NCBI RefSeq assembly: GCF_016905445.1
Contig: NZ_JAFEXF010000005.1
Span: 1 to 64,000 of the forward strand
Direction: 5' to 3'
DNA length: 64,000 nucleotides
Source: Streptomyces sp. G44
GTDB taxonomy: Bacteria > Actinomycetota > Actinomycetes > Streptomycetales > Streptomycetaceae
Shown: in pieces, positions 42,062 to 64,000 of the stretch
Numbering within the stretch: the stretch's first letter is position 1
How the letters are laid out: every line of letters begins with the position of its first letter
Notes under the pieces: generated by a model
What the model was told of the DNA's origin: nothing
Seen by the model: only the letters and a program-made list of their open reading frames with translations
The model's database searches: none
Program-made: the position numbers and the translations under genes

Positions 42062-42257
42062 AACGCCTGTCCGCGCACAAGTCGTGTCGACGCGCAATCG
42101 CTGCCCGGCTGGCAAGAAGCGCCAAGTCGGCAGAGGTGCTCTCCACGAACAAGATCGGCACAACACCGACAGCATCATGCCCCGGAGGTCAGGGCCATTC
42201 CCGCGGTTGCGAGATACGGCCCCCCCGGAGCGGCCGCCCAGACGACGGAGATGGGCA

Positions 42258-42957: not shown

Positions 42958-43040
42958 ACTCCATGACCTGCAGGTTTGTCACTGCCGGGAGCTGATTCCG
43001 AGTACTTGCGCTGAGTCGGCCATAACGCCTATATGGGGTG
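42958..43040 (-). promoter_or_regulatory. Leader of array E
   Basis: ACTCCATGACCTGCAGGTTT, GGAGCTGATTCCGAGTAC and GAGTCGGCCATAACGCC match the other leaders with several substitutions. The gap 43041-43170 to cas3 should also contain the rightward cas promoter. Confidence 0.75.
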
Positions 43041-43170
43041 ACTGGGCGGTTGATTGAGTGTGTGGAAGGCCCGGGTACTACGCAATGCCATGGGCTGGGG
43101 CCTCCATTTTCCTTGATCTGTCGTACAGCGGCGCGTTTTCTCCGTATCGGCTCCGTGGCCCCGGGTATGC

Positions 43171-46104: not shown

Positions 46105-47797
46105 TTCTGACGAACAGGGCGCTTTAGAAGCGGCGTTGACGTTCGACCTGACGAGCCGGCCCTGGATTGCGGTGCTGGATATGCACGGTGCCCAGCATGA
46201 GCTGTCGCTGCGTGAGGTGTTCGCCCGCGCCGGTGACCTCCGCAGTCTGGTGGGGGATCTGCCCACCCAGGAATTCGCCTTGATGCGTCTGCTGCTCGCG
46301 GTGGCCCATGACGCACTCGAGGGCCCGCGCGACACTGAGCACTGGGCGCGGCTGTGGGACGACGACGACTGTTTCGCGCCGGTGGCCGCCTATCTCGACG
46401 CCCACCGTGAGCGGTTTGATCTGCTGCACCCTGAGACGCCGTTCTTCCAGGTCGCGCGGTTACGCACCGCCCGTGAGGAGGTTTTCTCCCTCAACCGGAT
46501 CGTTGCGGACGTTCCTAACGGGGAGCCGTTCTTCAGCTCCCGCATGCCGGCCGTCGAGCGGCTCGGTTTTGCCGAGGCGGCCCGCTGGGTCGTGCACGCG
46601 CACGCCTATGACACCTCCGGCATCAAGACAGGGATGGACGGCGATGCCCGGGCCAGGGGCGGCAAGGTGTATCCGCTGGGGGTTGGCTGGGCGGGGGCGC
46701 TGGGCGGAGTCTTCGCCGAGGGCCGGACGCTGCGCGAGAGCCTGCTGCTGAATCTGGTGGCCGCTGACACGAGCGGCGTGCGGTCTTCTGCTGAAGACGT
46801 TCCGGCCTGGCGGCGCGAGCCGTGCGGCCCCGGCTCTTCGGGACGCATCCGTCCGATGGGCGTGCGTGATTTGTACACCTGGCAGAGCCGGCGGTTGCGC
46901 CTGTGCTTTGACGCCGAGGGTGTCTACGGCGTCGTCCTGGGCTACGGCGATCCTCTGGCCGCCCACAATATGCACGGTGACGAGCCGATGACCGCCTGGC
47001 GGCGGAGCCCGGCCCAGGAGAAGAAGCGCGGCGAGTCACTGGTGTATCTGCCGAGGCAGCATGAGCCGGAGCGGGCGGCCTGGCGGGGGCTTGAGGCGCT
47101 GGTCGTGGGGCGGGCCGAGGCAACTCAGGGGGGTGAGGCTGCCGACGTGCTGCGGCCGGGCGTCCTGGAGTGGATCGCCCGGCTGGTGACCGAGGGGGAG
47201 CTGCCGCGCGGCTTGCTGATCCGGACGCGCGTGGTGGGGGCGGTCTACGGCACGCAGCAGTCGGTGATCGACGAGGTCGTCGACGACCGGCTGGCGATGG
47301 CCGTGGTGCTGCTGCACCAGCAAGACCGAGCCCTGGCCCGCCATGCCATCGACGCGGTCGGTGAGGCAGAGAGGGCGGTCACCGCGCTGGGTGATCTCGC
47401 CACCGATCTCGCCCGCGCGGCAGGCCGCGACAGCGAGGGGCCCCGTTCGGCCGCCCGTAGCCTCGGCTTTGCCGCTTTGGACGGCCCCTACCGGCTCTGG
47501 CTGCGCGGCCTGGCCGCGGCCACAGACCCTGACGCCCACCGCATCCGCTGGCAGCAAGACGCCCATCAGCAACTGCGGCGTGTGGGCGAACAGCTCATCA
47601 GCCAGGCAGGCGACACCGCGTGGGAGGGCCGGGTGATGGCAGGCAGCAAGGGCTCCCAGTGGCTCAACTCGGCATCGGCCGACAAGTGGTTTCGCATCCG
47701 CCTGGATACCGCGCTCAGCGACCCCTACCCCCGTGACCGGCCGCCCCACGACGGTTCTGTGCCGGGGCCCGGCCCTTTGGCGAAGGAGCCCGCATGA
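46097..47797 (+). CDS. casA: CasA/Cse1, Cascade large subunit
   Basis: This is a 566-residue protein from GTG 46097. It begins near FDLTSRPWIAVLDMHGAQHE and LSLREVFARAGDLRSLVGDL, as expected for Cse1, and has HPETPFFQVARLR and RWVVHAHAYDTSGIKTGMD. CasA recognises the PAM and recruits Cas3. Its stop overlaps the casB ATG. It is full length, unlike the second casA at 58310. Confidence 0.95.
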   Translation: MTDSDEQGALEAALTFDLTSRPWIAVLDMHGAQHELSLREVFARAGDLRSLVGDLPTQEFALMRLLLAVAHDALEGPRDTEHWARLWDDDDCFAPVAAYLDAHRERFDLLHPETPFFQVARLRTAREEVFSLNRIVADVPNGEPFFSSRMPAVERLGFAEAARWVVHAHAYDTSGIKTGMDGDARARGGKVYPLGVGWAGALGGVFAEGRTLRESLLLNLVAADTSGVRSSAEDVPAWRREPCGPGSSGRIRPMGVRDLYTWQSRRLRLCFDAEGVYGVVLGYGDPLAAHNMHGDEPMTAWRRSPAQEKKRGESLVYLPRQHEPERAAWRGLEALVVGRAEATQGGEAADVLRPGVLEWIARLVTEGELPRGLLIRTRVVGAVYGTQQSVIDEVVDDRLAMAVVLLHQQDRALARHAIDAVGEAERAVTALGDLATDLARAAGRDSEGPRSAARSLGFAALDGPYRLWLRGLAAATDPDAHRIRWQQDAHQQLRRVGEQLISQAGDTAWEGRVMAGSKGSQWLNSASADKWFRIRLDTALSDPYPRDRPPHDGSVPGPGPLAKEPA

Positions 47798-48489
47798 CCA
47801 CCCTCACCACAACCACCACCCCCGTGCAGCGGGTCAGCACTCTCACCGGTGACCTCATCGTGCCACTGCAACGGGGCTACCTGAGCGATGAGTCCTACGC
47901 TGTCGCGGCACTGGCCCGGCTGCGCCGGGGCGCGGGCAAAGACGCCTCCCAGATGCCGGACCTGTGGGGGCTGGCCGACACCGGGCCCCTCTACGACCGG
48001 CCCGCTGAAGGCGGGCGGCCCTTAAGCGAGGGGCAACTCATTCGCGCTGTGAACGCGGTGCACACGGCGCTCACCTTGTGGGCCCTGCACCAGCAGTCCC
48101 GCGGCGCGGCCATGCACCGGCCCGGCTCCCGCACCGCACCAAGAGCGCTCGGTGCCGCCGTGCGCCAGATGATGCCACCCGGGGAGATCGCCGAGCCCAT
48201 CCGCAAGCGCCTCGTCCGCGCCGGCACTGCACCCGGCCTGACCGCTCTGAGCCAGCGCCTGCGCGAGCTCATCCTGCTGTTGCGGGGAGCCGACATCCCC
48301 CTGGATTACGCCCTGCTGGCCGGACAGCTCTACAGCTGGCAGGAGCCCACCGGCCGCGAGGCCGTACGCCAGATGTGGGGACGCTCCTACCACTCCTACC
48401 GGGCCCCAGAACATGCCGAGGCAGACAGCCCCGCTGCGGCCGTCGGCACCGACACCATCAACGACTTAACGGACAAGGACGCCTCGTGA
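47794..48489 (+). CDS. casB: CasB/Cse2, Cascade small subunit
   Basis: This is a 231-residue protein from ATG 47794 (ATGA overlap). It contains YAVAALARLRRGAGKDASQM and LTLWALHQQSRGAAMHRPG, then LILLLRGADIPLDYALLAGQ and RQMWGRSYHSYR near the end. These are Cse2 hallmarks. Two copies stabilise the displaced strand in the Cascade R-loop. Confidence 0.93.
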   Translation: MTTLTTTTTPVQRVSTLTGDLIVPLQRGYLSDESYAVAALARLRRGAGKDASQMPDLWGLADTGPLYDRPAEGGRPLSEGQLIRAVNAVHTALTLWALHQQSRGAAMHRPGSRTAPRALGAAVRQMMPPGEIAEPIRKRLVRAGTAPGLTALSQRLRELILLLRGADIPLDYALLAGQLYSWQEPTGREAVRQMWGRSYHSYRAPEHAEADSPAAAVGTDTINDLTDKDAS

Positions 48490-49679
48490 ACCGCATCTTC
48501 CTCGACGTGCACGCGCTGCAGACGGTGCCGCCCAGCAACCTCAACCGGGACGACACCGGCGCACCGAAGTCAGCCGTCTACGGCGGGGTGCCCCGCGCCC
48601 GCGTCTCCAGCCAGGCATGGAAGCGCGCGACCCGCACCTATTTCAACCAGGAGCACCTGCTTGACCCGAGCGAACTCGGTGTCCGCACGAAGAAGGTCGC
48701 CGAGGTCCTCGCCACCCGCATCACCGGCCTTACTCCTGGTTTGCAGGGCTCCGAGGCCCTCCAGCTCGCCGCCGACGTCATGCAGGCCGCCACCGGCTCC
48801 AAGATCGAGGTGCCCAAGCGGAAAGCTGACGCCGCCAAGGACGGCGGGTTTGAGGCAGCACCGGAATCGAAGTACCTGATGTTCCTCAGCGCCCGGCAAC
48901 TCGACGGCCTGGCCGCGCTCGCCGTCGAGGGCGCGCCCGACATCAAGACCTACCTCAAGGACAAGAACCACAAAGCGCGTGCTCGGGAGATCGCCGATAC
49001 CCGGCACTCTGTCGACATCGCGCTGTTCGGCCGCATGGTGGCCGACTCCGCCGACTTCAACGTCGATGCCGCCGTTCAGGTCGCCCACGCCATCAGCGTG
49101 CACCGCGTCGAGCCTGAGTCGGACTACTACACGGCCGTGGACGACGAGAACACCGACGCCGAATCGGGCGCCGGAATGATTGGCACCATCGATTTCAACT
49201 CCTCCACGCTCTACCGCTACGCGGCGCTCAGCGTCCACCAGCTCGCCAAGAACCTCGGCGAAGGGCTGCGCGAGGAGGAAGCGCGTACCGCACCCGTGCG
49301 GCGCGCGGTTGAAGCGTTCGTGCAGAGCTTCCTGGAGTCGCTGCCGACCGGAAAGATCAACACGTTCGGACACCACACCCTCCCCGACGCTGTGATCGTG
49401 AAACTGCGCACGACCCGTCCCATCAGCTACGTCGCCGCATTCGAGGAACCCGTCACCGCCCAAGGAGGGCACCTGCGGGAAGCGGTGACCCGCCTTACGC
49501 AGTACGCGGCGGACGTGGAAGGCACCTACGGCGACGAGAAGACCACCCTGACGTGGGTGCTGCGGGTCGGCTCCAACACCGAGCCGCTTGCCGGCCTCGG
49601 CACGCAGGCCCACCGGCTGGGCGACCTGGTCCAAGCGGTCGGCCAGGCCGTCGCCGAGCGCCTGGACGAGTCCGCATGA
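48486..49679 (+). CDS. cas7: Cas7e (CasC/Cse4), Cascade backbone
   Basis: This is a 397-residue protein from GTG 48486, overlapping the casB stop (GTGA). It reads IFLDVHALQTVPPSNLNRDD, SAVYGGVPRARVSSQAWKRA, TRHSVDIALFGRMVADSADF and GAGMIGTIDFNSSTLYRYAA. Six copies coat the crRNA spacer in type I-E Cascade. The longer frame from 48078 is out-of-frame with casB and not real. Confidence 0.95.
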   Translation: MNRIFLDVHALQTVPPSNLNRDDTGAPKSAVYGGVPRARVSSQAWKRATRTYFNQEHLLDPSELGVRTKKVAEVLATRITGLTPGLQGSEALQLAADVMQAATGSKIEVPKRKADAAKDGGFEAAPESKYLMFLSARQLDGLAALAVEGAPDIKTYLKDKNHKARAREIADTRHSVDIALFGRMVADSADFNVDAAVQVAHAISVHRVEPESDYYTAVDDENTDAESGAGMIGTIDFNSSTLYRYAALSVHQLAKNLGEGLREEEARTAPVRRAVEAFVQSFLESLPTGKINTFGHHTLPDAVIVKLRTTRPISYVAAFEEPVTAQGGHLREAVTRLTQYAADVEGTYGDEKTTLTWVLRVGSNTEPLAGLGTQAHRLGDLVQAVGQAVAERLDESA

Positions 49680-50422
49680 GCGTCCTCATCCTGCGGCTGG
49701 CCGGCCCCCTGCAAGCCTGGGGGGCATCGGCCCGCTTCGTGCGCCGCACCACCGAGCCCGCCCCCACCAAGAGCGGCGTCATCGGGATGCTCGCCGCAGC
49801 GAAAGGCCTGGACCGCAGCGACGACACCGCCCTGGCCCGCCTGGCCTCCTTGCGGTTCGGCGTCCGCATCGACCAGCCCGGTACCCGCTTACGGGACTTC
49901 CAGACCGCCCACCACGCGGTCACCGGCAAATCCATGCCGCTGTCCGAGCGCTTCTATCTCGCCGACGCCGTCTTCGTCGCCGCACTGGAAGGCGACCGCG
50001 CCTTCCTGCATGAACTCGACACCGCCCTGCGCGCGCCCGCGCACCCCCTCTTCCTCGGCCGGCGATCCTGCCCGCCGTCCCTCCCCGTAGAGCTCGCCGT
50101 CCACGACACCTCCCTCCGCCAGGCCCTGCACGACGAACCCTGGCAGGCCGCCGACTGGTACCAGCGCCTGCGCCGCAAAGAGCCCACTGTCTCCCTGACC
50201 GTTCTACGGGAGCCCGGACCAGGTGAACAGCACGGAGAAACCCTGCGCGATCAGCCCCTGAGCTTCGCCGCCGCACACCGGCGTCACGCACTGCGGCCCT
50301 TGGTCAGCACCACCGTGGAGATGCACAATCCGCGTGCAGCGGCCGTCCATTGCGGGCCGGGCGCCACCCGCCCAGTACCGCACCACGACCCGTTCGACGC
50401 CGTAACGGAGGAGGCCCGCTGA
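49676..50422 (+). CDS. cas5: Cas5e (CasD)
   Basis: This is a 248-residue protein from ATG 49676 (ATGA overlap). It reads LILRLAGPLQAWGASARFVR, RTTEPAPTKSGVIGMLAAAK, RTRLRDFQTAHH-type TRLRDFQTAHHAVTGK and LGRRSCPPSLPV. Cas5e grips the 5' handle of the crRNA. The intact reading frame contrasts with the frameshifted second cas5. Confidence 0.95.
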   Translation: MSVLILRLAGPLQAWGASARFVRRTTEPAPTKSGVIGMLAAAKGLDRSDDTALARLASLRFGVRIDQPGTRLRDFQTAHHAVTGKSMPLSERFYLADAVFVAALEGDRAFLHELDTALRAPAHPLFLGRRSCPPSLPVELAVHDTSLRQALHDEPWQAADWYQRLRRKEPTVSLTVLREPGPGEQHGETLRDQPLSFAAAHRRHALRPLVSTTVEMHNPRAAAVHCGPGATRPVPHHDPFDAVTEEAR

Positions 50423-51210
50423 TGTACTTGACCCGGTTCCGTGTGAACACCGCACGGCCTGGTGCCCGCCGCCTGCTGTCCTCACCCCAGTCCCTGCACG
50501 CGGCTGTCATGGCCTCCTTTCCCTACCTGCTGCCCACCAACGCGACAGGCACCGGTGACGGCCCCAGAGTGCTGTGGCGTCTTGACCACAACGCCACAGC
50601 CGAGGTCTTCCTCTACCTCGTCAGCCCACAACAGCCGGACCTGACCCATCTCGTAGAGCAGGCCGGCTGGCCCGCCGCCCACAGTCCGGACACCCCCGGC
50701 TGGCAGAGCCGCCCCTACACCCCCTTCCTCAACCGCCTGACCGCAGGCAGCATCTGGCAGTTCCGGCTCACCGCCAACCCGGTACACCACATCCGGCGCA
50801 AGGACGGCGAACGCACCAAACGCACCGCACACCTCACCCCCGTCCATCAGCAGGCCTGGCTCCTCGACCCCAAACGCCAGGAACACGCGGGATTCCACAT
50901 CATGGAAAAAGCGCACGAACAACGGCTGCTGCCCGGCGGCAGCACTCACCACGACCACCCCCACCACGGAGACCGGTACGAGCTGACCGTCCGCGACGAA
51001 CGCGCCCTCTCCTTCGCCAAGTCCCGGGGCGACAGGTCACCGGCCCACCGCGTCAAAGTGGTGACGGTCACCTTTGACGGACGCCTCGAAGTCACTGATG
51101 CCGACGCCCTGCGGCGCACCCTCACCCGAGGACTGGGCAAGGCCAAGGCGTACGGCTGCGGGCTCATGACCCTCGCCCCCGTCCCTACATCTTCAGTACC
51201 CGGGAAGTGA
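50422..51210 (+). CDS. cas6: Cas6e (CasE) crRNA-processing endoribonuclease
   Basis: This is a 262-residue protein from ATG 50422. The N-terminus MYLTRFRVNTARPGARRLLS places the catalytic His at position 26 (SPQSLHAAVMASFP). The Gly-rich loop near the C-terminus (GLGKAKAYGCGLMTLAP) is the Cas6 signature. It cuts within the repeat hairpin and stays bound to the 3' handle. Confidence 0.95.
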   Translation: MYLTRFRVNTARPGARRLLSSPQSLHAAVMASFPYLLPTNATGTGDGPRVLWRLDHNATAEVFLYLVSPQQPDLTHLVEQAGWPAAHSPDTPGWQSRPYTPFLNRLTAGSIWQFRLTANPVHHIRRKDGERTKRTAHLTPVHQQAWLLDPKRQEHAGFHIMEKAHEQRLLPGGSTHHDHPHHGDRYELTVRDERALSFAKSRGDRSPAHRVKVVTVTFDGRLEVTDADALRRTLTRGLGKAKAYGCGLMTLAPVPTSSVPGK

Positions 51211-51214
51211 GGAA

Positions 51215-52198
51215 ATGGCGACAGTCGGCAAGCGGGCTGCCCTTACCCCGCGTCACCTCACCCGCACCGGAGAGCGGGTCTCCTTCATCTACCTGGAACG
51301 ATGCACCATCCACCGTGACGCCAACGCCCTCACCGTCGAGGACGCCGACGGCACCACCCACATCCCCTCCGCCACCATCGCCACCCTCCTGCTCGGCCCC
51401 GGCACCCGCATCACTCACCAGGCGATGAGCGTCCTCGGCGATACCGGAGCGGCAGTCGCCTGGGTAGGCGAGCACGGCGTGCGCTACTACGCCGGCGGCA
51501 GAGCCCTGAGCCGCTCAGCCGGTCTCGTCGAGGCCCAAGCCACCCAATGGGCCAGCCGTCGCAGTCGCCTCGCTGTCGCACGCGCCATGTACAAACTGCG
51601 CTTTCCCGAGGAGGATCCAGATGGCCTGACCCGCCAGCAACTCCTGGGACGGGAAGGCGACCGCGTCAAAGACTGCTACCGCGCCCAGGCGGCCCGCACC
51701 GGCGTCCGCTGGCACGGCAGGAAATACATCCCGGGCGACTTCGGCAGCGGCGACCCGGTCAACCAAGCCATTACGGCCGCAGCCCAGTGCATGTACGGCA
51801 TCGCCCACGCCGTCGTCGCCTCGCTCGGCTGCAGCCCCGGACTCGGATTCATCCACTCCGGGCACGAACTCTCCTTCGTGCTGGATATCGCAGACCTCTA
51901 CAAGACGGAGATCGGCATCCCGCTCGCCTTCGACACCGCAGCCGAGGGGCCCGAGGATGTGGGTCCTCGAACCCGCCGCGGCCTGCGCGACCGCATCAAC
52001 GAGACCGGCTTGCTTGATCGTTGTGTCAACGACATCAAGTATCTGCTGCTGCCCGATACCCAAACTGCGGCTGATGACCAACTCAGCGGACAGGACCGCG
52101 TGACTCTCCAGACCGACCAGGGCCACGAAGTCTCAGCTGGAGTGAACTACGGCTCCAAGGACCCTGCCACAGACGCCGAAGAGGCGGTCATCTGGTGA
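51215..52198 (+). CDS. cas1: Cas1 integrase (type I-E)
   Basis: This is a 327-residue protein from ATG 51215. It shows FIYLERCTIHRDANALTVED, TRITHQAMSVLGDTGAAVAW, VRYYAGGRALSRSAGLVEAQ and the metal-binding block GFIHSGHELSFVLDIADLYK (His and Asp). With Cas2 it inserts new spacers at the leader end. It is the only cas1 in the window, so it would serve all six arrays. Confidence 0.97.
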   Translation: MATVGKRAALTPRHLTRTGERVSFIYLERCTIHRDANALTVEDADGTTHIPSATIATLLLGPGTRITHQAMSVLGDTGAAVAWVGEHGVRYYAGGRALSRSAGLVEAQATQWASRRSRLAVARAMYKLRFPEEDPDGLTRQQLLGREGDRVKDCYRAQAARTGVRWHGRKYIPGDFGSGDPVNQAITAAAQCMYGIAHAVVASLGCSPGLGFIHSGHELSFVLDIADLYKTEIGIPLAFDTAAEGPEDVGPRTRRGLRDRINETGLLDRCVNDIKYLLLPDTQTAADDQLSGQDRVTLQTDQGHEVSAGVNYGSKDPATDAEEAVIW

Positions 52199-52545
52199 CC
52201 GTCATCGTCCTCACCACCTGCCCACCCGGACTCCGCGGATTCCTCACCCGCTGGCTTCTCGAGATCTCCGCAGGTGTCTTCATCGGCGACCCCTCCGCTC
52301 GGGTGCGCGACGTCTTGTGGAACGAGGTCCAGCGATACGCGGGCCAGGGCCGCGCTCTGCTCGCCCACACCACTAACAACGAGCAGGGCTTCACTTTTCG
52401 TACCCATGACCATGCCTGGCACCCAACAGACCATGAAGGCCTGACCCTAATCCACCGGCCAAACAAAAAGCCTCCACAAGATTCTGTCGCGCCAAACCCC
52501 GGCTGGAGCAATGCTGCAAAACGTCGCCGCTTCGGCAGAGGATGA
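52195..52545 (+). CDS. cas2: Cas2e
   Basis: This is a 116-residue protein from GTG 52195, overlapping the cas1 stop. It reads MTVIVLTTCPPGLRGFLTRW, LLEISAGVFIGDPSARVRDV and NEQGFTFRTHDHAWHPTDHE, the type I-E Cas2 pattern. About 25 extra residues follow the conserved LIHRP end. Cas2 bridges two Cas1 dimers. Its stop lies 90 bases before array F. Confidence 0.95.
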   Translation: MTVIVLTTCPPGLRGFLTRWLLEISAGVFIGDPSARVRDVLWNEVQRYAGQGRALLAHTTNNEQGFTFRTHDHAWHPTDHEGLTLIHRPNKKPPQDSVAPNPGWSNAAKRRRFGRG

Positions 52546-52634
52546 CCACTTCAGGCTATTCGTCGCTTTGGCCCGATTCAGAGAAACTGCTCCGAATCGG
52601 CTTCTCAGTCTGAGAAAACAGCAGGTCGGGCAGT
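52546..52634 (+). promoter_or_regulatory. Leader of array F
   Basis: Read on the plus strand, CGATTCAGAGAAACTGCTC, GAATCGGCTTCTCAGTC and CAGCAGGTCGGGCAGT align with the reverse complement of the array A-E leaders (for example CGAATCAGCGAAAGTGCTC and CCGCAGGTCGAGAAGT of array D). It is therefore the same leader in inverted orientation. Confidence 0.8.
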
Positions 52635-53883
52635 GTGCTCCCCGCGCCTGCGGGGATGGTCCCATCGGCGTCCTCGCCCAGGGCAAGCCCGGCCGGTGCT
52701 CCCCGCGCCTGCGGGGATGGTCCCCGGGCCGGGGCCGTGGACATCACCCGCGACGTGTGCTCCCCGCGCCTGCGGGGATGGTCCCGACCCCGGAAAGGTC
52801 TTCCCCGACTTCCCCAAGTGCTCCCCGCGCCTGCGGGGATGGTCCGTGAAGACGCGCTCGGCGAGGCTCTTCGGGTAGGTGCTCCCCGCGCCTGCGGGGA
52901 TGGTCCCGGCCCCCAGTACGCCGCGAGTACGGTCCCCATGTGCTCCCCGCGCCTGCGGGGATGGTCCCGCACCGCCGAGCGGGTGCAGCTCGACGGACTT
53001 GTGCTCCCCGCGCCTGCGGGGATGGTCCCGCGCCGCTGCGCATGGCAGCCCGCAAGGACCTGTGCTCCCCGCGCCTGCGGGGATGGTCCCACGCACGTCT
53101 TCTTCTCCGACCACCTCGACACGTGCTCCCCGCGCCTGCGGGGATGGTCCCGCGCGCACCGCCTCCGCCCTCTTGGGCGCCTGGTGCTCCCCGCGCCTGC
53201 GGGGATGGTCCCGCGCCCACATCCTCTACGTCGTCCACCCCGACGTGCTCCCCGCGCCTGCGGGGATGGTCCCGCACCGCCACCGCCCCGCCCTCGACCA
53301 CCGGCGTGCTCCCCGCGCCTGCGGGGATGGTCCCGGCAGCGGCTTCGCCCTGGAGGTCTCCTTGCCGTGCTCCCCGCGCCTGCGGGGATGGTCCCGCCGG
53401 GTCGCCCCAGTAGATGTCGGTCAGCTGGTGCTCCCCGCGCCTGCGGGGATGGTCCCCAGTAACCGGCCGGGGGCGCCGGGGGCCGGGGGTGCTCCCCGCG
53501 CCTGCGGGGATGGTCCCACCCGCTGATCGGCTCCTGATTGGCAAGCCATGTGCTCCCCGCGCCTGCGGGGATGGTCCTCAGAACGCGGCCAAGAGCGGTG
53601 CGCAGACGCAGTGCTCCCCGCGCCTGCGGGGATGGTCCCCGGTGATCGACTCACGACCCGGCCCTCTAGGGGTGCTCCCCGCGCCTGCGGGGCTGGTCCC
53701 ATCAAGACCGGTGCTGATGACACCGTTGGCGGGTGCTCCCCGCGCCTGCGGGGATGGTCCCCGGTAGGCGTATCCGCGCATGGTCACGGTGTCGTGCTCC
53801 CCGCGCCTGCGGGGATGGTCCCTTTTTGACCTGCGGCTTTACAATTTTCGTTAGGTGCTCCCCGCGCCTGCGGGGATGGTCCC
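52635..53883 (+). CRISPR. CRISPR array F, type I-E, 21 repeats / 20 spacers
   Basis: Repeats GTGCTCCCCGCGCCTGC...GGGGATGGTCCC start at 52635 and recur every 61 bases to 53855, all spacers being 32 bases. Single changes occur at repeats 4, 16 and 18. It is transcribed on the plus strand, opposite to arrays A-E. A 32-base spacer at 53823-53854 is unusually A+T-rich. Confidence 0.98.
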
Positions 53884-53940: not shown

Positions 53941-54648
53941 ATGTTGCAGACGCGCGCCCTGACCCGTGAGGCCGGGCGGGCACGGCAGCTCCTGGTCGCC
54001 GGGGAATGGCGCCCTGCCGCGGCGGACTCCGAAGCAGCAGCGCGCGTCCTGGCCCGCCTCACAGCCCCGCTCCCAACCCGGCGGGCAGCGGCGACCACGC
54101 AGACGCTGGCCACGGACCGGGACCGGCGCCTCCAACGCATCCTGCGAACCACCATCCACCACCTCGACGCAGGCGCAGTCAGCCCGCCCGCAGCCGCCCT
54201 CCTGGCCGCCGTCGCCCGCGCCTTCTTGCCTTGGCACACCACCCCTAACCCACCGCCCGCAGCGGCGGCCCCGAGATACGGGACCCCGGTGGGAACGGCT
54301 GACGGCCCGGCCGTGCCACCAACAGAGGTGGGCGAGGCCCTGCTTCCCGATCTGATCGAACTGTTCGCCGTGCTGGCCTCGGCGAGCCCACCCGGGAGCG
54401 TCCCGCTCACGCCCCCGGTCGAGCCCTGGCAGGTCCGGTACGCGGGCCACTTCCGTCGTTACGGTAGACCCGCTTTCGGGGTGTGGACGGCGGAGACCAT
54501 CGGCTGCCCGGCATGCGGGGGTAAGGCCGGCCCGTGGACGGTGACCTGCGACTGGCGCCTGATCTCGCTGGGCTGCCCGTGCGGGGCAGTGACCCACGAG
54601 CACGGCCTTGCCTTCTCCGAGGTCTGGCTCCTCTTGCCGGACCTGTGA
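53941..54648 (+). CDS. Hypothetical protein with C-terminal zinc ribbon
   Basis: This is a 235-residue protein from ATG 53941; ATG 53911 is possible. The N-terminal 100 residues are helical (QLLVAGEWRPAAADSEAAAR). The C-terminal part has IGCPACGGKAGPWTVTCDW and LGCPCGAVTHEHGLAFSEVW, a four-cysteine zinc ribbon. No family is recognised. It lies directly after array F and converges with the truncated STAND gene. Confidence 0.6.
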   Translation: MLQTRALTREAGRARQLLVAGEWRPAAADSEAAARVLARLTAPLPTRRAAATTQTLATDRDRRLQRILRTTIHHLDAGAVSPPAAALLAAVARAFLPWHTTPNPPPAAAAPRYGTPVGTADGPAVPPTEVGEALLPDLIELFAVLASASPPGSVPLTPPVEPWQVRYAGHFRRYGRPAFGVWTAETIGCPACGGKAGPWTVTCDWRLISLGCPCGAVTHEHGLAFSEVWLLLPDL

Positions 54649-54659
54649 CCGAGTGCCGT

Positions 54660-56168
54660 GAATGACCGCCCGCACATTGGTGCCCGGTCGGCCAAAAGCA
54701 GGGCGGAGCGGATCGCGCCGTGGAGGTGGTAGGGCCACAGGGCGTAGGGGTCGTGGGTGACGATCGGGCGTTCGCTCAGGCGTCGGGCGGGGGCCTGGTG
54801 GGTGAGGCTGGCGGCGCGGCTGGCCAGGTCGAGGTCTAAGGCGTCCAGCAAGGAGACCGAACGCAGGACGTGGCGTTCGTCGCTGGTCAGGTCGGACAGG
54901 GTGCGGGCGATGAGCGCGGGGAAAGTGCAGTTGAAGTCGTCGGCGCTGGGGGTGGTGCCTGAGCGGCGGACCTTTAGGAAGCGGGCGACGGCCAGGTCCA
55001 GGTGGAGGGGCAGGCCGTGGGAGCGTGCGGTGATGACGGCGCGGATGCTCTGGTCGATCAGGGGCTGGCCGTCCTGGGTGAGGCGGCGGGCGAGGTAGTC
55101 GTCGCAGTCCTCGTCGGAGAAGTCGCCCACCAGATGCTGCCCGGCGCCGGTGTGCCCGCCGATCTGGGGCGGGGTATGGCCTGTCGGGGCGGCCAGACCG
55201 GGCCAGGCTGCGGGACCGGTCCAGTCGAGCTGGCCGTGCAGGGTCGGGTCGGCCCATTGCAGGCGGCTGCGCCCGCTGATGACGAAGAAGGCGTTCGGCA
55301 TGAGCCAGACCACGCGTTGCAGTAGGCGTTCCAGGTCGCGGTGGCGGTCGCCGGTGTCCTCGAAGGTGTCGAACAGGATCACCGGGACGAGGCGTTTCTT
55401 CGTCGGAAGGCGGCTGATCTCCCAGGCCAGCAGATGCGGGTAAAAGCTCAGTGCCTCCAGGTCGCAGGGCGCCTCCAGCAGGGCGACGGTCCGGGCGCAG
55501 CCGGCCAGTGCCTGTGCGCGCTCGCGCCGGTCCCGCAGCGCTTGTACGAGCGCCGTGGTGACCTGGCCGGCTGCGGAGCCCACCAGGCCGGGCAGCTGCA
55601 GCGCTCCGGCGACCTCGCTCACCGCGCCTTGCATCTGCTGCGGCAGCGGGGTGGAGAAGCGGCCCATCAGTCCGGTGCGGCGTACGTAGGCCTCGATCGG
55701 TTCGCCGGGGTGGACCTGTTCCCAGTACTGGCGCAGCGCCGCGTCGAAGGAGGGCAGAGGGCGGCCGATGGCTCCGGCGAGTGCGAGGCGGATGGTGAGG
55801 ATGACGCGTTCGAAGTCCGAGCCGGCCGACGCCGCGCGGGCCAGGTCGATGCGGATGGGCAGGAGCGTCTCGCCTGCCCAGGCCGGGCTGCCCCACTGGG
55901 TGGGCCGCTGCTCGGCGCCGGTGAGCGCGGCCTCGAGCTTGCGCAGCAGGGTGGTCTTGCCGACGCCGCCCACGCCGTGGAACACGATGAGGTTGGTGCG
56001 GGGCGCTTGAAGGTCTTCGACGTCGAAGGCGGGCGCCCTAATGTGCCGCAGGTGCTCATCCAGCGCGCGGGGAGACCAGGTCCCACTGGAGATGACAGTT
56101 GGTGAACGCCTCGTCGGCGTCGAAGCCGAAAGGGTCGTTCGAGCTGAACAGCGCACGCAGATCGGTCA
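54660..56168 (-). pseudogene. STAND-type ATPase, truncated and frameshifted
   Basis: ATG 56168 opens MTDLRALFSSNDPFGFDADE and AFTNCHLQWDLVS, then a one-base slip near 56067 leads to ALDEHLRHIRAPAFDVEDLQ and the Walker A block LIVFHGVGGVGKTTLLRKL. Further motor features are RLVPVILFDTFEDTGDRHRD and FFVISGRSRLQWADP. After YALWPYHLHGAIRSALLLA the sequence ends where the convergent gene begins, so the C-terminal sensor repeats are gone. STAND ATPases of this kind act as regulators or phage-defence sensors. This copy is broken. Confidence 0.75.
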
Positions 56169-56282
56169 TCGGCTACGGTCCCCCCAACGATGATCACTTG
56201 GCGTCAATCTACGCCGCACAACCGGCGGCCGGCACCATGGGGATGCAGGCAGACCGATAACCGCTGGTGGGACTGAACCAAG

Positions 56283-56651
56283 CTAGAGGTACTCACCGAC
56301 TGGGCATGTCCAGTCAGACGCTTCGCTGGGGTCTCCCCATACGGCTACGCCATCTACGATCCGTGGGGTCGCGGGCCGAGAGGTTCCCGGAACCACAGGC
56401 ACACCAACGTGGTAAATCTCGACAAATGCGTCTGGAAGCTTGTCTGCGAGAGTATAGAGAATATCGGCTTTGCCTTGTGAAACGTTGACCAGGAAACCGA
56501 CTCCCATTCCGTGCCGATCCTGCACAAGAACCTCTACATACCCCTCATCCTCTGAGTCGGTGTACGTCACCACCGGGTCTTCGATAGCTTGACCGCGAAG
56601 AAGGTCGTGCAGTACTAGGCGTGTCAATTCTTCTAGCTGTGACATCGTCAT
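56283..56651 (-). CDS. Hypothetical 122-residue cytosolic protein
   Basis: It starts at ATG 56651 (or 56645) and reads SQLEELTRLVLHDLLRGQAI, YVEVLVQDRHGMGVGFLVNV and VAVWGDPSEASDWTCPVGEY. It is acidic with no signal peptide or known domain. Its G+C content is lower than that of the cas genes. It lies beside a secreted protein gene on the same strand, so it may be an immunity-type partner, but this is speculative. Confidence 0.55.
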   Translation of the reverse strand: MTMSQLEELTRLVLHDLLRGQAIEDPVVTYTDSEDEGYVEVLVQDRHGMGVGFLVNVSQGKADILYTLADKLPDAFVEIYHVGVPVVPGTSRPATPRIVDGVAVWGDPSEASDWTCPVGEYL

Positions 56652-56679
56652 CCTGTCGATATGGCGGGTGAGTAGACGC

Positions 56680-56710
56680 TAGGGCGTGGCGGTCCAGCCG
56701 CCACGCCCTA
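56680..56710. terminator. 13-bp perfect hairpin
   Basis: TAGGGCGTGGCGG (56680-56692) and CCGCCACGCCCTA (56698-56710) are exact complements with loop TCCAG, followed on the plus strand by an A+T-rich stretch. It separates the two small genes. Confidence 0.65.
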
Positions 56711-56744
56711 AGTCTATTTTAAAGCTCGGAGTTCAGTGAAAATG

Positions 56745-57302
56745 TCACACCAGGGTGACTACAAAATCAAACGTGGTGTGGACATACCTCTTCCCGCGAG
56801 GGATGGGGAAGTTTTCATCGATGGTGAGCTTATAGCTTCCGGTCGAGACCTTGAAGGACGAGTGGACTGTGTAGGAAGCGGGAACTGAGGGATGGGAATC
56901 AGAGTAACCGAACTTCCGGCCATTCTTTGTTGCAAAAGCCTTCTCGTGCATAGGGCCTGTAGCCGGGGCTGAAATTTGCTTGTGAAGCTTGTAGCCCCAG
57001 GCGAAGTACATCCTGCGCGAATTGTAATGAACCTGACCGGTAAAGTGACCGCTCCTGTCATTGCCTCGATAGTCGGGATTCTGAGGCGTGAAGAAGTGCG
57101 TAGCTCCTATGCTCTTCGTTTTCGCCGTCTGCCCCTTTACGACTGACCGTATTTCGGAGTGCTCGGTCATCTTGATCACGTAGGACTTCGATTTTTGGGG
57201 TGACAAGTCCCCTTTATCGGATGCGGCTGTTGCCGGCATTGCGAGTGACGAAAGGATAGCGCCTGTCGCTACGGCTGCAAAGGCGACGCGTGCCCTGTTC
57301 AT
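56745..57302 (-). CDS. Secreted hypothetical protein
   Basis: This is a 185-residue protein from ATG 57302; earlier in-frame ATGs give an implausible N-terminus. MNRARVAFAAVATGAILSSL followed by AMPATAAS is a standard Sec signal peptide with an AxA cleavage site. The mature part is strand-rich (THFFTPQNPDYRGNDRSGHF, YTVHSSFKVSTGSYKLTIDE). Lower G+C content suggests acquisition. No domain is recognised. Confidence 0.7.
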   Translation of the reverse strand: MNRARVAFAAVATGAILSSLAMPATAASDKGDLSPQKSKSYVIKMTEHSEIRSVVKGQTAKTKSIGATHFFTPQNPDYRGNDRSGHFTGQVHYNSRRMYFAWGYKLHKQISAPATGPMHEKAFATKNGRKFGYSDSHPSVPASYTVHSSFKVSTGSYKLTIDENFPIPRGKRYVHTTFDFVVTLV

Positions 57303-57766
57303 GTACCCCCCTGTGAGAGTCCTCATTGAAACCTTAAGGGGGATATTAATGGCATATGCATGCATGATCAACATGACATAGATCACGACTTATGTTTATT
57401 TTTGTAGTAAAGTAGTTGGCCTTTGAAAGCTTCCTGCGGGGTTCCCGCGCTGTCTGCCTCAGCTGAGCCCGTCACGCCACGTTGCTCGGCGTTTCTTTCC
57501 CGTGCGCCGCACGAGCGGCGGCTCGCCGTCCCCGCCCTCGAATACCAGCTGCCCGCCGCACAGCATCAGACGACCGCCTTCCAGAACTGCCTCGGCCAGC
57601 GCGAGATATCTCGGCCGAAGCCCTCGCGAGCCTTGGGCAGTTGCCGCGGCTGCTCCAAGATCCCCGGCAGAGTCAAGCTGAAGGGCCAGGTCGGCCGCGC
57701 GGACGGCGCAGCCTGGGGACAGGGACAATGGCGCCTTTATGGCCCCGAGCGAGAAGGAAGAGCGAT
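57303..57766. other. A+T-rich promoter region and unassigned DNA
   Basis: Bases 57330-57415 are unusually A+T-rich and probably hold the promoter of the secreted-protein gene. Bases 57420-57766 have open frames on both strands but none that I can support as a gene. Confidence 0.35.
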
Positions 57767-58012
57767 TTGTCTGAGCACGTGAACCGCCAGGCCGCTGAGA
57801 AGCTGGTACAGCAGGTGAGCACCTGGTACTCCCAGCAGATCATCGCGGAGCGCCGGGCCCCGGCGCCCGATGCGCAGCGTCTGAAGCATCTGACCGACCT
57901 CCTGGCGGCCTGCGCCGCCGACCGGCAGGCACTTGAGGATGCCGAAGCCGATGAGATCGATGCGATCGCGGCCCGATACGCAGCCCGCGCCAAGGAGTTC
58001 GAGGGCCAGTAA
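57767..58012 (+). CDS. Small hypothetical helical protein
   Basis: This is an 81-residue protein from TTG 57767, chosen because GAAGGAAG lies 7 bases upstream; ATG 57728 is the alternative. It reads SEHVNRQAAEKLVQQVSTWY, SQQIIAERRAPAPDAQRLKH and EADEIDAIAARYAARAKEFE. It is a helical hairpin of a type common in Streptomyces accessory regions. The function is unknown. Confidence 0.55.
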   Translation: MSEHVNRQAAEKLVQQVSTWYSQQIIAERRAPAPDAQRLKHLTDLLAACAADRQALEDAEADEIDAIAARYAARAKEFEGQ

Positions 58013-58310
58013 CCGCCACCGGGTGCGGGCACGGGCAGCGGCACGTCGACAACGGCGTGGGCGAGCGCAGGCGGCTGCAGCTCGGCGGGCAGCAGCGGCC
58101 TGGCCAGCATGGCGATCTGGGCCAAGTCGGCCCGGTACTGCGGCAGCTCATGGTGGAGCCGGGTGAGGGTGGCGAAGAAGGCGGCGGCCTCGCCGGGTGT
58201 GTAGGGCCGCTGCTGCTCGGCCAGGAGCATCAGCTCGCCCACTGGCGCCACCCCCCAGGAACCGTTGGTGGTGCGGGTGTTGCGGTAGGCCGCGGTCAGA
58301 TCCCGGCGGA
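58013..58310 (-). pseudogene. Gene fragment truncated at both ends
   Basis: The minus frame reads SVIRRDLTAAYRNTRTTNGS, ELMLLAEQQRPYTPGEAAAF and FATLTRLHHELPQYRADLAQ. It has convincing coding character but no start and no sensible end. Its upstream side stops exactly where the second casA begins, marking a rearrangement junction near 58310. The family is not recognised. Confidence 0.45.
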
Positions 58311-59932
58311 TGACGGAGGTCGACGAACTCGGATGGCTTCAGGTCACCGCCTCGAAGGACCTGCCGCTGCGCGAGTACCTGCACCGCAGCCACGAACTCA
58401 CCGGCCTGCTCGGGGACCTGCCGACGGTGGCACCGGCGATCCGCTCGCAGGTCCTGCTTCCGGTCGTGCGTCACGCCCTGGCCGACACGCTCACCTATGA
58501 CACCTGGACCGCCACGCTGCAGGCCGGCCGTTTCTCCCCGGAGCAGCTCCGGGCGATCGACCGCTACCTCGATGAGCGTCTCGACCGGTTCCGGCTGTTC
58601 GACGAGGTACGGCCCTTCGGACAGGCCGCAGGCCTGAGCCACGCCAAAGGCGAGACGAAACCGTCATCGCTGCTGGTGCCGGTCATCGATTCCGGCAACA
58701 ACGTCCCCTTGTGGAGCGGGCGGACCGACGGGGACCCGCTACCGCTCACGCCGGCTGAGGCGGTGCGGTGGATGTTGCACGCACAGTGCTGGGACACCGC
58801 CGGGATCAAGGCCGCCGCAGTCAGCGATCCGCAGGCGAAAGCCGGAAAGACGGCGGGCAACCAGACGGGCCTTCTGGGTTCACTGGGTGTGGTCGAGGTG
58901 ATCGGGCGCACCGAGCTGGAGACCCTTTTGCTCAATCTTCCCTGCAATCCCCTGCCCGCGGGGGATCTGCCCCAGTGGGACCGTGAGCCGCAGAATCAGC
59001 TCTGGTCTTCCCGCCCGTGTACCGGAATCCTCCACCGCTGGACGTGGCCGTCCCGCCGCATCCGCCTCCTGCCCGAGCAGACGGAGTCGGGCGACCTCGT
59101 CGTCCGGCAGATCATCCTTGCCGCAGGCGACCGCTGCACCACCGCTCCCACTCCCGACACCGAGCCGCGGACCTGCTGGAGCAAGAAGACCGAAAAGAAG
59201 AAAGAATTTGTCTACCCGCGGCGGCACCGGCCCTCAGTCGCCGCATGGCGCGGGCTGGAAGCCCTGGTCACCCTGCACCGGGACGGCAGCAAGCACTTTG
59301 AAACCTCGCTGCTCCTGACCCAGGTCGCCGACGCCCTCGCAGACGAGGACCTGCCGGACGACTACCCCCTGCGGATCGCCCTGTCCGGCATCGAATACGG
59401 CACGCAATCCTCCATCGTCAAGGACGTCCTGGGGGACGGCATCCCATTGCCGGTTGCGGCTCTCGCCGCCGACAGCGACGTGCGGGAACACATCCTGAAA
59501 GTGGTCTTCCAGGCCGAGACGATCGCCCGGGCCGTTACCGGCCTGCACCAGCATCTGCTGCAGGCCGTCGGCGGGGAGGCGCCGCTCACCGGCAAAGGTG
59601 CCAGGGCAGGCGATCGCATCCTGCACACCATCGACCCCTACGTACGGCGTTTCTTGGCCGGGTGCCAGCGCGCACCGGACAGCGACCTGCTCACCCGCGC
59701 CCATCACGCCTACGAACAGGTCCTTGACCGGATCGCCCGCAAGGAGGCAGACAGCCTCCTGCGGTCGATGCCCAGCAAAGCGTTCACCGGTCGCACCCGT
59801 GAGAACACGGCCGGGAAGACCCTCGTCTTCCGGCAGGCCGAAGCGGAGCGGTTCTTCCACGCCGACCTGCGTAAAACGCTCACCTACCTCTACTCCGACA
59901 CCTCTGGCCACAAGGCGGAGGACGCCGCATGA
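58310..59932 (+). pseudogene. casA: CasA/Cse1 of second Cascade, 5'-truncated
   Basis: From ATG 58310 there are 540 residues: DELGWLQVTASKDLPLREYL, HRSHELTGLLGDLPTVAPAI, VRWMLHAQCWDTAGIKAAAV and LRIALSGIEYGTQSSIVKDV. Compared with the first CasA, the opening FDLxxRPWIxVL segment is missing, and the in-frame sequence upstream meets a TAG. There is no ribosome site. The rest is intact. It was probably cut by the rearrangement at 58310. Partial function cannot be excluded. Confidence 0.8.
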
Positions 59933-60525
59933 CCGACACCACCCCTGCCCCCACCGCCCCGGGCCCCGGTCCAAAACGCCGGCCCTGGTATTGGGAGGAC
60001 TACACCCCCCAGGGCACCAAAGCAGGGGAACTGCCCCCCGGTGGTGACCTGGCAGCCCTGCATCTGGGTCTCACCCTGGCCGCCGGCACCGCACCGCAGA
60101 TGTGGCGCTTCTACCGCACCCCTGTGGACGGCCGGCTCGCCGGCCGTGGCGAAGTGAGCGACGACCAGGCGGCCGAGCACATGACGCTCGCTCTGTTCGC
60201 CATGCACCAGCAGTCCAAGACCACGCTTATGCACCACAGCGGCATCCGCTTCGGTACCGCCGTACGCGCCCTGCACGAGCGGTTCAGCACCGAGGCTGTC
60301 GCCAGCCGCATGTCCGCCGCCGCCCAGGCCCGCAGCCAGAACGCGGTCTTCTTCCACCTGCGCGGACTGCTCAGCCAGCTCTCCGTGATCTCCCAGCCAA
60401 TCGACTACACCCAGCTCCTCGCCGACCTCAAGGCGTGGCCCTGGCCCGACGGCCGCTCCCGCGTCATCCGTTCGTGGGGCAGCGACTACCACGCCTACGT
60501 CAAAGAGGACCCCGTCCGCCCCTGA
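59929..60525 (+). CDS. casB: CasB/Cse2 of second Cascade
   Basis: This is a 198-residue protein from ATG 59929 (ATGA overlap). After a 25-residue Pro-rich start it reads DLAALHLGLTLAAGTAPQMW, HMTLALFAMHQQSKTTLMHH and SWGSDYHAYVKEDP at the end, paralleling LHQQSRGAAMHRPG and WGRSYHSYR of the first CasB. It is clearly diverged from that copy. Confidence 0.88.
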   Translation: MTDTTPAPTAPGPGPKRRPWYWEDYTPQGTKAGELPPGGDLAALHLGLTLAAGTAPQMWRFYRTPVDGRLAGRGEVSDDQAAEHMTLALFAMHQQSKTTLMHHSGIRFGTAVRALHERFSTEAVASRMSAAAQARSQNAVFFHLRGLLSQLSVISQPIDYTQLLADLKAWPWPDGRSRVIRSWGSDYHAYVKEDPVRP

Positions 60526-60582
60526 CCGCCCCCAGCACAGCAGCACCCCACCCGACCCGACCACTGCGCAAGGAAAATGAGC

Positions 60583-61749
60583 ATGTCCATCACGCTGATC
60601 CGCCGCGCCTTCATTGACATCCACATCCTGCAAACCACCCCGCCCGCCAACCTCAACCGGGACGACGCCGGCAGCCCCAAGGAAGCCATCTACGGCGGTG
60701 TCCGACGCCCCCGCGCCTCATCCCAGGCCTGGAAGCGCGCTACCCGCATGGCCTTCACCACACTCGGCATCAACGCCGACGACCTCGGCACCCGCACCAA
60801 GCGCATCGCCGCGGACCTCGCCGACCGGCTCGCCGCACGCACCGGCCTGAAGGAGGAGCCTGCCGCCCGCGTCGCAGCCGCCATGCTCATCCCGCTCGGC
60901 GTGACCGCTTCGACCAAAAAGGCCGCCGAGACCGCCTACCTCCTGTTCTACGGACAGCGGCAGCTCGAGCAGCTCGTCGACCTCGTCGCCGACCGGGCGC
61001 ACACCCTTGCCGGGCTGGAGGACAAGCTGCTCAAGGACGAACTGAAGGGTCTCGACGTCCACAATGCCATCACCACAGGGCATCCCATCGATGTCGCCCT
61101 TCTCGGCCGCATGGTCGCCGACGTCCCCGGCATTAATGTCGACGCCGCCTGCCAGGTCGCCCGCGCCCTGGCCACGCACGCCGCCGAGCTGGAATTCGAC
61201 TGGTACACCGCCGTCGACGACCGCAACGAAAAATCAGAGACAGGCGCCGGAATGATGGGCCGCATCGGCTTCAACTCCGCCACCTTCTACCGCTACGCCA
61301 CCGTCGGCCTCCACCAGCTCAACGCGAACCTCAGCAACCCCGTCAAGGCCATCGAGACGGCGGCCGCCTTCGTCCAGGCGTTCACCCGCTCCATGCCCGC
61401 CGGCTACGGCAACTCCTTCGGACACCGCACCATGCCCCAGCTCGTCGCCCTCAACCTGCGCACCGACCAGCCCGTCAACCTGGTCACCGCCTTCGAAAAG
61501 CCCGTCACCACCCGTACCGGCGGTTACGCCGCGCCCTCCGCACGCGCTCTCGCCCGCGAATACCAGACCATCGCCGCACAGTGGGGCGCCCCCGCGCTGT
61601 GGACCGGCATCACCCACAACTTCACCGACGACCCCGACACCACCACCGCACTCAGTGCCGCATTCGGTGAACCGCAGGCATTCCCCGCCCTCCTTGACCA
61701 GCTCACCGACCGCCTGCGCACCCTCGTCCAGGACCAGGAGACCGCGTGA
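60583..61749 (+). CDS. cas7: Cas7e of second Cascade
   Basis: This is a 388-residue protein. ATG 60583 gives the better spacing to AAGGA; ATG 60577 is possible. It reads AFIDIHILQTTPPANLNRDD, EAIYGGVRRPRASSQAWKRA, HPIDVALLGRMVADVPGINV and GAGMMGRIGFNSATFYRYAT, each matching the first Cas7 block by block. The frame is intact, so selection may still act on it. Confidence 0.93.
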   Translation: MSITLIRRAFIDIHILQTTPPANLNRDDAGSPKEAIYGGVRRPRASSQAWKRATRMAFTTLGINADDLGTRTKRIAADLADRLAARTGLKEEPAARVAAAMLIPLGVTASTKKAAETAYLLFYGQRQLEQLVDLVADRAHTLAGLEDKLLKDELKGLDVHNAITTGHPIDVALLGRMVADVPGINVDAACQVARALATHAAELEFDWYTAVDDRNEKSETGAGMMGRIGFNSATFYRYATVGLHQLNANLSNPVKAIETAAAFVQAFTRSMPAGYGNSFGHRTMPQLVALNLRTDQPVNLVTAFEKPVTTRTGGYAAPSARALAREYQTIAAQWGAPALWTGITHNFTDDPDTTTALSAAFGEPQAFPALLDQLTDRLRTLVQDQETA

Positions 61750-62547
61750 ACACCCGCACCCTCCTGCTGCGCCTGGCCGCCCCTGTGCAGGCATGGGGAG
61801 ACCACCGTGGCCAGGTCGAACGCCGCCACACGCAGCCCCTACCCACCAAATCCGGGGTGATCGGCCTGCTGGCCGCCGCCCTCGGCCATGAACGGGATAC
61901 CCCCCTCGGGGACCTCGCCCACCTCCAGATGGGTGTCCGAGTCGACCTCCCCGGCACCCTCCTGCGCGATTTCCACATCGCCTCGGATTACCGCGGCAAG
62001 CCCCTGCCCGCAGCAAAGGTCAACGCCAAAGGCATCCAGACCGCCACTTCACCGCCCAAGTACACCCTTACCTCCGAGCGCTTCTACCTCCAGGACGCCA
62101 CCTTCCTCGTCGCCCTCGAAGGACCCACCCAACGCATCGAAGATGCCGCTGCGGCCGTAGCGAACCCCGTCTACCCACTCAGCCTCGGCCGTCGATCCTG
62201 CCCACCCACCTTTCCCTTGCGCCTGTGCGTGGCCAACCTGCCCCTGGACGAGGCGCTCGCTCGCCAGCCCTGGCTCGCTTCGCCGTACGCCCGCAACGTC
62301 TGGTCACACCAGCACGGTGAAAAGAAGCCCGCAAAGCCCCCCCATCATCCACCTGCACGCCGAGGTCGAGGACGAGGCCGGTGACATCCGCCGAACCGAC
62401 CAGCCCTTTACCTCGCAAACCAGCACCACCCGCCACACCACCCGGCGCGTACGCGTCCTTCAGATCCCCATCGCCACCGGATGGGACCCCGAGCCTGACA
62501 CCGACCAGCAGAGCGGCCATGACCCGCTCGCCCTCCTCGGATGGTGA
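61746..62547 (+). pseudogene. cas5: Cas5e of second Cascade, frameshifted at a C7 run
   Basis: ATG 61746 opens LLLRLAAPVQAWGDHRGQVE and continues through TQPLPTKSGVIGLLAAALG, TLLRDFHIASDYRGKP and LGRRSCPPTFPLRLC. At CCCCCCC (about 62336-62342) the frame changes; the expected ending (IIHLHAEVEDEAGDIRRTDQ, VRVLQIPIATGWDPEPDTD) follows in another frame to TGA 62547. The short frame ends at 62384 with a basic tail. The indel may be real or a homopolymer error. Confidence 0.85.
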
Positions 62548-63386
62548 CCCGCCCCATGGCCTACCTCTCCCGCATCCCCATCGCCCCCCTGCGCGAAGGC
62601 GCACGCCGCTTCCTGAAATCCCCCCAGGCCATGCACGCCGCCGTCCAAGGTGCTGTCGCCTGGCACACCGAACCCGGCCGAACCCTGTGGCGCGTCGACG
62701 CCGACACCCCCCACCGCCCCTACCTGTACGCCGTCACCCAAATCCAGCCAGACTGGACACACCTGACTGAACAGGCCGGATGGCTCATCGATGACCCCAG
62801 CGTGAAACCCGCAATCGCCGACTACACGCCTCTGCTGGCCCAACTGGCAGCCGGGCAAGAGTACGCCTTCCGTCTCACGGCCTCACCCGTCCAGAACACC
62901 AAAACACCGCACAAAATGAGCCCCAACCAGATGAGAATCGCCGCAGAAGCCGAAGCACAAGACAAGCGCCGACGCGGCTTCCGCCTCGGACAGCACACAG
63001 CCAAGCACCAGCTCGCATGGCTGACCAACAAGGCCAGAAAGCACGGCTTCGAACTGCGTGAACTCCCCGCCCAGGCGCCTGCAGTGCCCAGCATCCTCCC
63101 GCTCATCGATCCGCCAGACGGCAACCTTGAGACCGCCTTGGACGCCAGTGTCACCAGCTCCGAGCGGCGCGTCTTCAGCAAGACGGACACCGAGGACGGG
63201 CAACCCGTCCTCAAGGACGGGAAGCCAGTCAGACGTCAGGTCACCGTCCAGACCGCCACCTTCAGCGGCACCCTCCGGGTCACCGAGCCTGTAGATCTCG
63301 CCCGGACGCTCCTCTCTGGCATGGGGCCAGCTAAAGCCTACGGATGCGGTCTCCTCACCCTCGCCCCGCTTCCTGAGAAGGCATGA
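62544..63386 (+). CDS. cas6: Cas6e of second Cascade
   Basis: It is about 280 residues; GTG 62544 overlaps the cas5 stop, and ATG 62556 is an alternative. It reads MAYLSRIPIAPLREGARRFL with the catalytic His at residue 27 of that form (KSPQAMHAAVQGAV) and the Gly-rich loop SGMGPAKAYGCGLLTLAP. A Lys/Gln-rich insertion (KTPHKMSPNQMRIAAEAEAQ) is not in the first Cas6. The protein looks functional. Confidence 0.9.
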   Translation: MTRPMAYLSRIPIAPLREGARRFLKSPQAMHAAVQGAVAWHTEPGRTLWRVDADTPHRPYLYAVTQIQPDWTHLTEQAGWLIDDPSVKPAIADYTPLLAQLAAGQEYAFRLTASPVQNTKTPHKMSPNQMRIAAEAEAQDKRRRGFRLGQHTAKHQLAWLTNKARKHGFELRELPAQAPAVPSILPLIDPPDGNLETALDASVTSSERRVFSKTDTEDGQPVLKDGKPVRRQVTVQTATFSGTLRVTEPVDLARTLLSGMGPAKAYGCGLLTLAPLPEKA

Positions 63387-63680: not shown

Positions 63681-63790
63681 ATCGACGGACCGCTGATGAG
63701 GGGCTTGAGCACCGGCTTCACCCAGGCCGGAAGAGCTCTCCGTAACGTGGATGTGGCAGCTCGGTGCCGAGGCGAGGCCGGACGAAAGGC

Positions 63791-64000
63791 GTGAGCGGAG
63801 GGGGCCTGCACGTGATCGACACCGGCGACATCGACGTCTTCCTCGGTCTGGACGTCGGCAAGGGCGAACACCACGCCACCGCCGTCACCCCGGCCGGGAA
63901 GAAGGCGTTCGACAAGCGCCTGCCCAACACCGAACCCAAGCTCCGAAAGCTGTTCGTCAAGCACGGGACGGTGCTGGTCGTGGTCGACCAGCCGGCCTCG
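63791..64000 (+). CDS. IS110-family transposase, N-terminal part (cut by window edge)
   Basis: The frame opens at GTG 63791 (or GTG 63812) and reads VIDTGDIDVFLGLDVGKGEH, HATAVTPAGKKAFDKRLPN and VLVVVDQPAS at the window edge. The D-V-G-K start with a following DQPAS is the RuvC-like DEDD domain of IS110 transposases, such as those of Streptomyces. The serine-containing C-terminal domain is outside the window. Confidence 0.85.
   Translation, partial: MSGGGLHVIDTGDIDVFLGLDVGKGEHHATAVTPAGKKAFDKRLPNTEPKLRKLFVKHGTVLVVVDQPAS

Follow-up and report, generated by a model that had tools for sequence, protein, structure and literature searches.

Two type I-E loci on one contig

The window, by which we mean the whole stretch of 64,000 nucleotides analysed here, corresponds to the first 64 kb of contig C539 (138 kb) from a Streptomyces-like draft genome that comprises 583 contigs and is rated 100% complete. 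It holds a complete type I-E CRISPR-Cas system, hereafter system 1, which is flanked by arrays on both sides, and, close to it, a second set of Cascade genes (58310-63386) in the canonical I-E order casA-casB-cas7-cas5-cas6. The following features are referred to throughout (clade B is defined in the next section):

37819-42957, minus strand: further arrays, nearly all of the GTGCTCCCCGC type, with one CTGCTC group
43171-52545, plus strand: system 1, with open frames for cas3, casA, casB, cas7, cas5, cas6, cas1 and cas2
52634-53882, plus strand: system-1 array of 21 repeats, GTGCTCCCCGCGCCTGCGGGGATGGTCCC
54459-56156, minus strand: P-loop "ATP/GTP-binding" protein of a plasmid zeta module, 62% identical to a zeta-neighbour gene on another plasmid
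57991-58314, minus strand: C-terminal remnant of a plasmid "zeta toxin family" gene, covering residues 504-613 of the 617 of a homologue (tblastn, 57% identity)
58318-58327, no strand: junction, placed by blastn, where the truncated plasmid zeta-family gene (minus strand, on the left) is fused to casA (on the right)
58310-59932, plus strand: casA/cas8e of the second set, 540 residues, its ATG at 58310 supplied by the fused sequence (Cse1, PF09481, 256 bits; TIGR02547; N-terminal alignment with clade B)
59929-60525, plus strand: casB/cas11 of the second set, intact (Cse2, PF09485, 88 bits; TIGR02548)
60577-61749, plus strand: cas7e of the second set, intact (PF09344, 374 bits; TIGR01869)
61746-62384, plus strand: cas5e of the second set, first reading frame, native to about 62340 and followed by out-of-frame residues (PF09704, 134 bits; TIGR01868)
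62337-62343, plus strand: C7 run, site of the break in the cas5 frame
62344-62547, plus strand: conserved cas5 C-terminus in another frame, ending in GHDPLALLGW (alignment with clade-B Cas5)
62556-63386, plus strand: cas6e of the second set, intact (PF08798, 191 bits)

All five proteins of the second set score above the curated Pfam or NCBIfam cut-offs, and the frames of casB, cas7 and cas6 are whole, which bears out the preliminary description of a Cascade set beside a complete I-E system with these three genes intact. Cas6e retains its conserved histidine (..AMHAAV..), which is present in 31 of the 32 aligned sequences. Downstream, an IS110-family transposase gene begins 380 bases past cas6 (window 63764-64000, running on into L045:764-2011).

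Profiling of all contigs recovered two Cse2 genes, whereas the Cas3 HD domain and Cas1 were each found once, in system 1. The second set has neither cas3, cas1 nor cas2 attached, as had been described from the window, and the assembly as a whole therefore contains no Cas3 or adaptation genes that belong to it. One candidate for a cas3 relocated downstream was rejected: the Cas3 fragment at C539:81106-81963 (L045:18106-18963, outside the window) matches the I-E lineage of loci L077-L082 and not clade B. It encodes the C-terminal 286 residues of a Cas3 that is closest (38-44%) to those of L077-L082 and L013, so that the contig bears traces of a third system, from yet another I-E lineage.

The second set belongs to a separate I-E lineage

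The two systems of the window had been taken for diverged paralogous copies, a view that the phylogeny does not uphold. Their Cas7 proteins are 48% identical and fall, in a maximum-likelihood Cas7 tree, into separate I-E clades that each include many complete systems in other genomes; the systems are thus not paralogues, and a duplication of system 1 within this genome is rejected. A search with the second-set Cas7 across 296 genomes of the genus returned about 24 loci at 52-58% identity, against 44-51% for system-1-like loci, and further related loci were found in Frankia. We refer to this I-E lineage of Streptomyces and Frankia, which holds the second set, as clade B. Within it, the second-set Cas7 pairs with that of locus L095, on plasmid NZ_CP108865 of S. 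virginiae NBC_00831 (69% identity), with a support of 100/99 and inside a 34-row clade supported at 100/98.

In the gene maps of about 40 clade-B loci, cas3 is present in all but one, and cas1-cas2 and arrays are present in most; L072 is itself a fragment, with cas7 and casB. The cas3-less state of the second set is therefore derived, and the missing cas3 is the window's own loss, unlike the missing cas1 and cas2, which may be older than the break in the window since the S. virginiae sister lacks them too. In about a dozen clade-B systems (L059, L062-L070, L123 and L124), casB (cas11) apparently occurs twice in a row, both copies sharing about 27-38% identity with the casB of the window.

The start of casA

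The preliminary description held that casA had lost its first 30 or so residues, an impression that arises from comparison with the longer CasA of system 1. CasA proteins of clade B (e.g., MEVTGDLVRDGWLPV and VEKVDLVGEGWLAAV) start near the start of the window casA in an N-terminal alignment, so that a CasA of this length is normal for the lineage, and the replacement affects no more than the native start and a few residues. At 58310, the ATG falls within the antisense strand of the truncated plasmid zeta-family gene, of which about 110 of 617 residues are left. In blastn, the alignment with three plasmid zeta-family loci extends ungapped up to 58318, or up to 58326 with a single 5-base gap, and then ends. 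It is by fusion to an unrelated gene that casA has lost its native start. A Shine-Dalgarno match at normal spacing is found for casB, cas7, cas5 and cas6 of the second set but not for casA, which says little by itself because the cas3 of system 1 likewise has none. Neither the zeta-casA fusion nor a close copy of the second set was found in any other genome or plasmid searched.

The break in cas5

The indel that had been described in a C7 run of cas5 is present in this assembly (62337-62343), and the frame downstream of it is conserved through GHDPLALLGW. Since this other frame is maintained up to the C-terminus, the break is either a very recent event or an error of sequencing. No other C/G run of at least 7 occurs inside the cas genes of the window, where nine runs of 6 stay in frame. 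It is plausible that the break is an error of the 583-contig draft, the only frame break sitting in the longest C run. Close copies that could reveal such an error were found neither among 199 relatives and 393 genus members nor in the plasmid collection, and the viral contigs searched for close copies gave no match.

Repeats and arrays

Clade-B repeats start with GTCG in nearly all loci, the exceptions being GTTG (L058) and GTGG (L051, L053 and L054), whereas GTG opens the repeats of system 1 and of related Streptomyces systems. No clade-B-type repeat was found in the genome, where all 37 matches to the GTCGN pattern carry 2 mismatches and read GTG, and no degenerate repeats within 9 mismatches were found beside the second set, in 53951-58310 or 63387-66500. 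The array stem CCCCGCGCCTGCGGGG and the ATGGTCC that follows it are common to the repeats of system 1 and those of the S. virginiae sister, which makes it plausible that the second set could use system-1 crRNAs.

Two further observations concern the arrays themselves. A stretch of 156 bases occurs three times in the window at array ends (40619-40774, 41906-42061 and 42928-43083; 67-78% identical), and each of these arrays has its own repeat variant, which looks like repeated array-plus-leader units. In the S. virginiae locus, which is without cas1 and cas2, strongly degenerate repeats occupy the gap between cas3 and casA (L095:10780-11440) and the region past cas6 (16968-18040).

Selection and age

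Pairwise dN/dS between the second set and its sister lies at 0.35-0.49 with both branches averaged and dS at 0.7-1.0, and is uninformative on its own, as synonymous sites are strongly diverged and the branches are averaged. We therefore carried out relative-rate tests of the second set against the intact sister L095, using eight outgroups for each gene except casB, which had seven. None was significant, the largest chi-square being 2.10. With L052 as outgroup, the unique amino-acid changes in window and sister number 56 and 65 in casA, 29 and 31 in cas7, 12 and 19 in cas5, and 24 and 29 in cas6; with L058 as outgroup, casB has 18 and 15. Columns that are otherwise invariant are violated in the window 5 times in casA, once in casB, 4 times in cas7, never in the N-terminal part of cas5 and once in cas6, compared to 9, 2, 4, 3 and 2 times in the sister.

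Every protein of the second set, the cas5 C-terminus past the break included, still looks constrained. There is no sign of long neutral drift, and whatever befell these genes is therefore recent. The combination by which the preliminary description would have been refuted, a cas5 frameshift together with relaxed selection on all five genes, is half borne out: the frameshift is there in the assembly and the relaxed selection is absent.

A probable recently captured fragment

We consider it probable that the second set is a fragment of a known I-E lineage that was captured recently, without cas3 or the native casA start, and that most likely has no function. A plasmid-like element would have captured part of a clade-B type I-E operon, with a break at the casA start that left behind cas3, the native start of casA and whatever drives the operon, and fused casA to a truncated plasmid zeta-family gene in antisense orientation. 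The cas1 and cas2 genes were probably already absent before the capture, as in S. virginiae, and the cas5 frame would have been lost later at the C7 run, unless the break is a sequencing error. We would expect such a set to be expressed little or not at all; with no native start, Cas3, cognate array or, as read, full Cas5, its five genes most likely make no interference complex.

Of the two readings offered by the preliminary description, that of a decaying remnant is accordingly the better supported, by the cut-off start of casA and by the missing cas3 and cognate arrays; the decay is too young for relaxed selection to be measurable. Several observations speak against a remnant: the proteins are constrained, the C7 break may be a draft error, an in-frame casA ATG exists, and cross-use of crRNAs is plausible.

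The other reading, a Cascade that is nuclease-free or borrows its Cas3, describes an arrangement seen in no relative and hence not a conserved design. In its nuclease-free form, the cas5 break would be an assembly error, or +1 slippage on the C7 run would bypass it; the complex would load system-1 crRNAs and bind DNA without cutting it, for repression or blocking. We regard this as unlikely: constraint on the five proteins equals that in the intact sister, Cas6 retains its histidine, and the system-1 repeats agree with those of the sister in their stem and 3' part, but the arrangement is unique among about 40 clade-B loci, casA has lost its native start and ribosome site, the genome has no cognate repeat type, and the cas5 frame is broken.

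The same defects in casA, array and cas5 count against a working second Cascade that borrows the Cas3 of system 1, which we hold to be very unlikely even with that Cas3 intact in the same cell. Recruitment of Cas3 in type I-E goes through CasA, and the Cas3 of system 1 pairs with a clade-A CasA, of which the clade-B CasA is a distant relative, so that its fit to the second set is doubtful.

Still harder to credit is a misjoin in the assembly that would have created the zeta-casA fusion while a complete clade-B system is present in the cell. The draft state, in 583 contigs, would allow for it, but in this genome, rated 100% complete, no contig carries a second Cas3 HD domain or a clade-B repeat. 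The zeta module, composed of the ATP/GTP-binding gene, a small gene and the zeta-family gene, does occur twice on the contig (window 54702-58314, where the zeta gene is truncated, and C539:120732-124461), but the two copies are just 74% identical in DNA over the NTPase, too different to collapse.

Finally, the proposal that the second set is a derived minimal I-E variant, partnered with a STAND NTPase for programmed cell death, for which the missing cas3, cas1 and cas2 and a P-loop NTPase 2 kb upstream could be cited, has next to no probability: this NTPase belongs to the duplicated plasmid zeta module, has its counterparts next to zeta-family genes on other Streptomyces plasmids and does not accompany other clade-B operons, and the cas3-less minimal loci of Streptomyces form a separate deep Cas7 clade, one of them with an adjacent STAND-WD40 gene.

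As a captured fragment, the second set documents how a plasmid-like element takes up a CRISPR effector module, with the break placed in the sequence and a loss too young to have marked the proteins. Should the complex work after all, it would be a natural test of whether a Cascade can rely on the crRNAs of another system and act without its nuclease.

Comparison with known systems

Several known systems combine a Cascade with the absence of other cas genes. Derived minimal I-E variants of Streptomyces, for which a role in programmed cell death together with a STAND NTPase has been proposed (Shmakov 2018 and Makarova 2020, according to PMC12231136 and PMC8730458), share with the second set a Cascade without cas3, cas1 and cas2, but differ in their STAND partner and, in the loci sampled, in a very distant Cas7 clade. 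That clade (L108-L111, L114, L116, L117 and L119; support 100/100), in which no cas3, cas1 or cas2 was detected, probably corresponds to the published variant, judging from gene content and one STAND neighbour; in L108, a STAND-type ATPase with WD40 repeats lies directly upstream of the operon (L108:1-4497). The I-E systems of Streptomycetaceae in which tnsB/tnsC replace cas1/cas2 (Faure 2019, according to PMC12231136) resemble the second set in having no cas1/cas2, but keep cas3 and an array, whereas the second set is without cas3 and no tnsB/tnsC was noticed adjacent to it (with no dedicated model). HNH-Cascade, known for example in type I-F1 (PMC11459484), is likewise a Cascade without Cas3; Pfam and NCBIfam profiles detect only Cse1, Cse2, Cas7, Cas5 and Cas6 domains in the second set and no HNH domain in its casA or cas5.

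Measured against a complete type I-E system, the second set has the Cascade genes in order, with the cas5 frame broken, and has no cas3 or array of its own. Complete clade-B systems of Streptomyces and Frankia (e.g., L003-L010, L052 and L057-L071) have the same Cascade lineage and gene order, but also cas3, usually cas1-cas2, and GTCG-type arrays. The closest counterpart is the S. virginiae locus, which shares with the second set the absence of cas1 and cas2 and the order casA-casB-cas7-cas5-cas6. In contrast to the second set, its casA begins at a start of its own, its cas5 frame is whole, and it carries cas3, with GTCGACCCCGC-type arrays ahead of cas3 and behind cas6.
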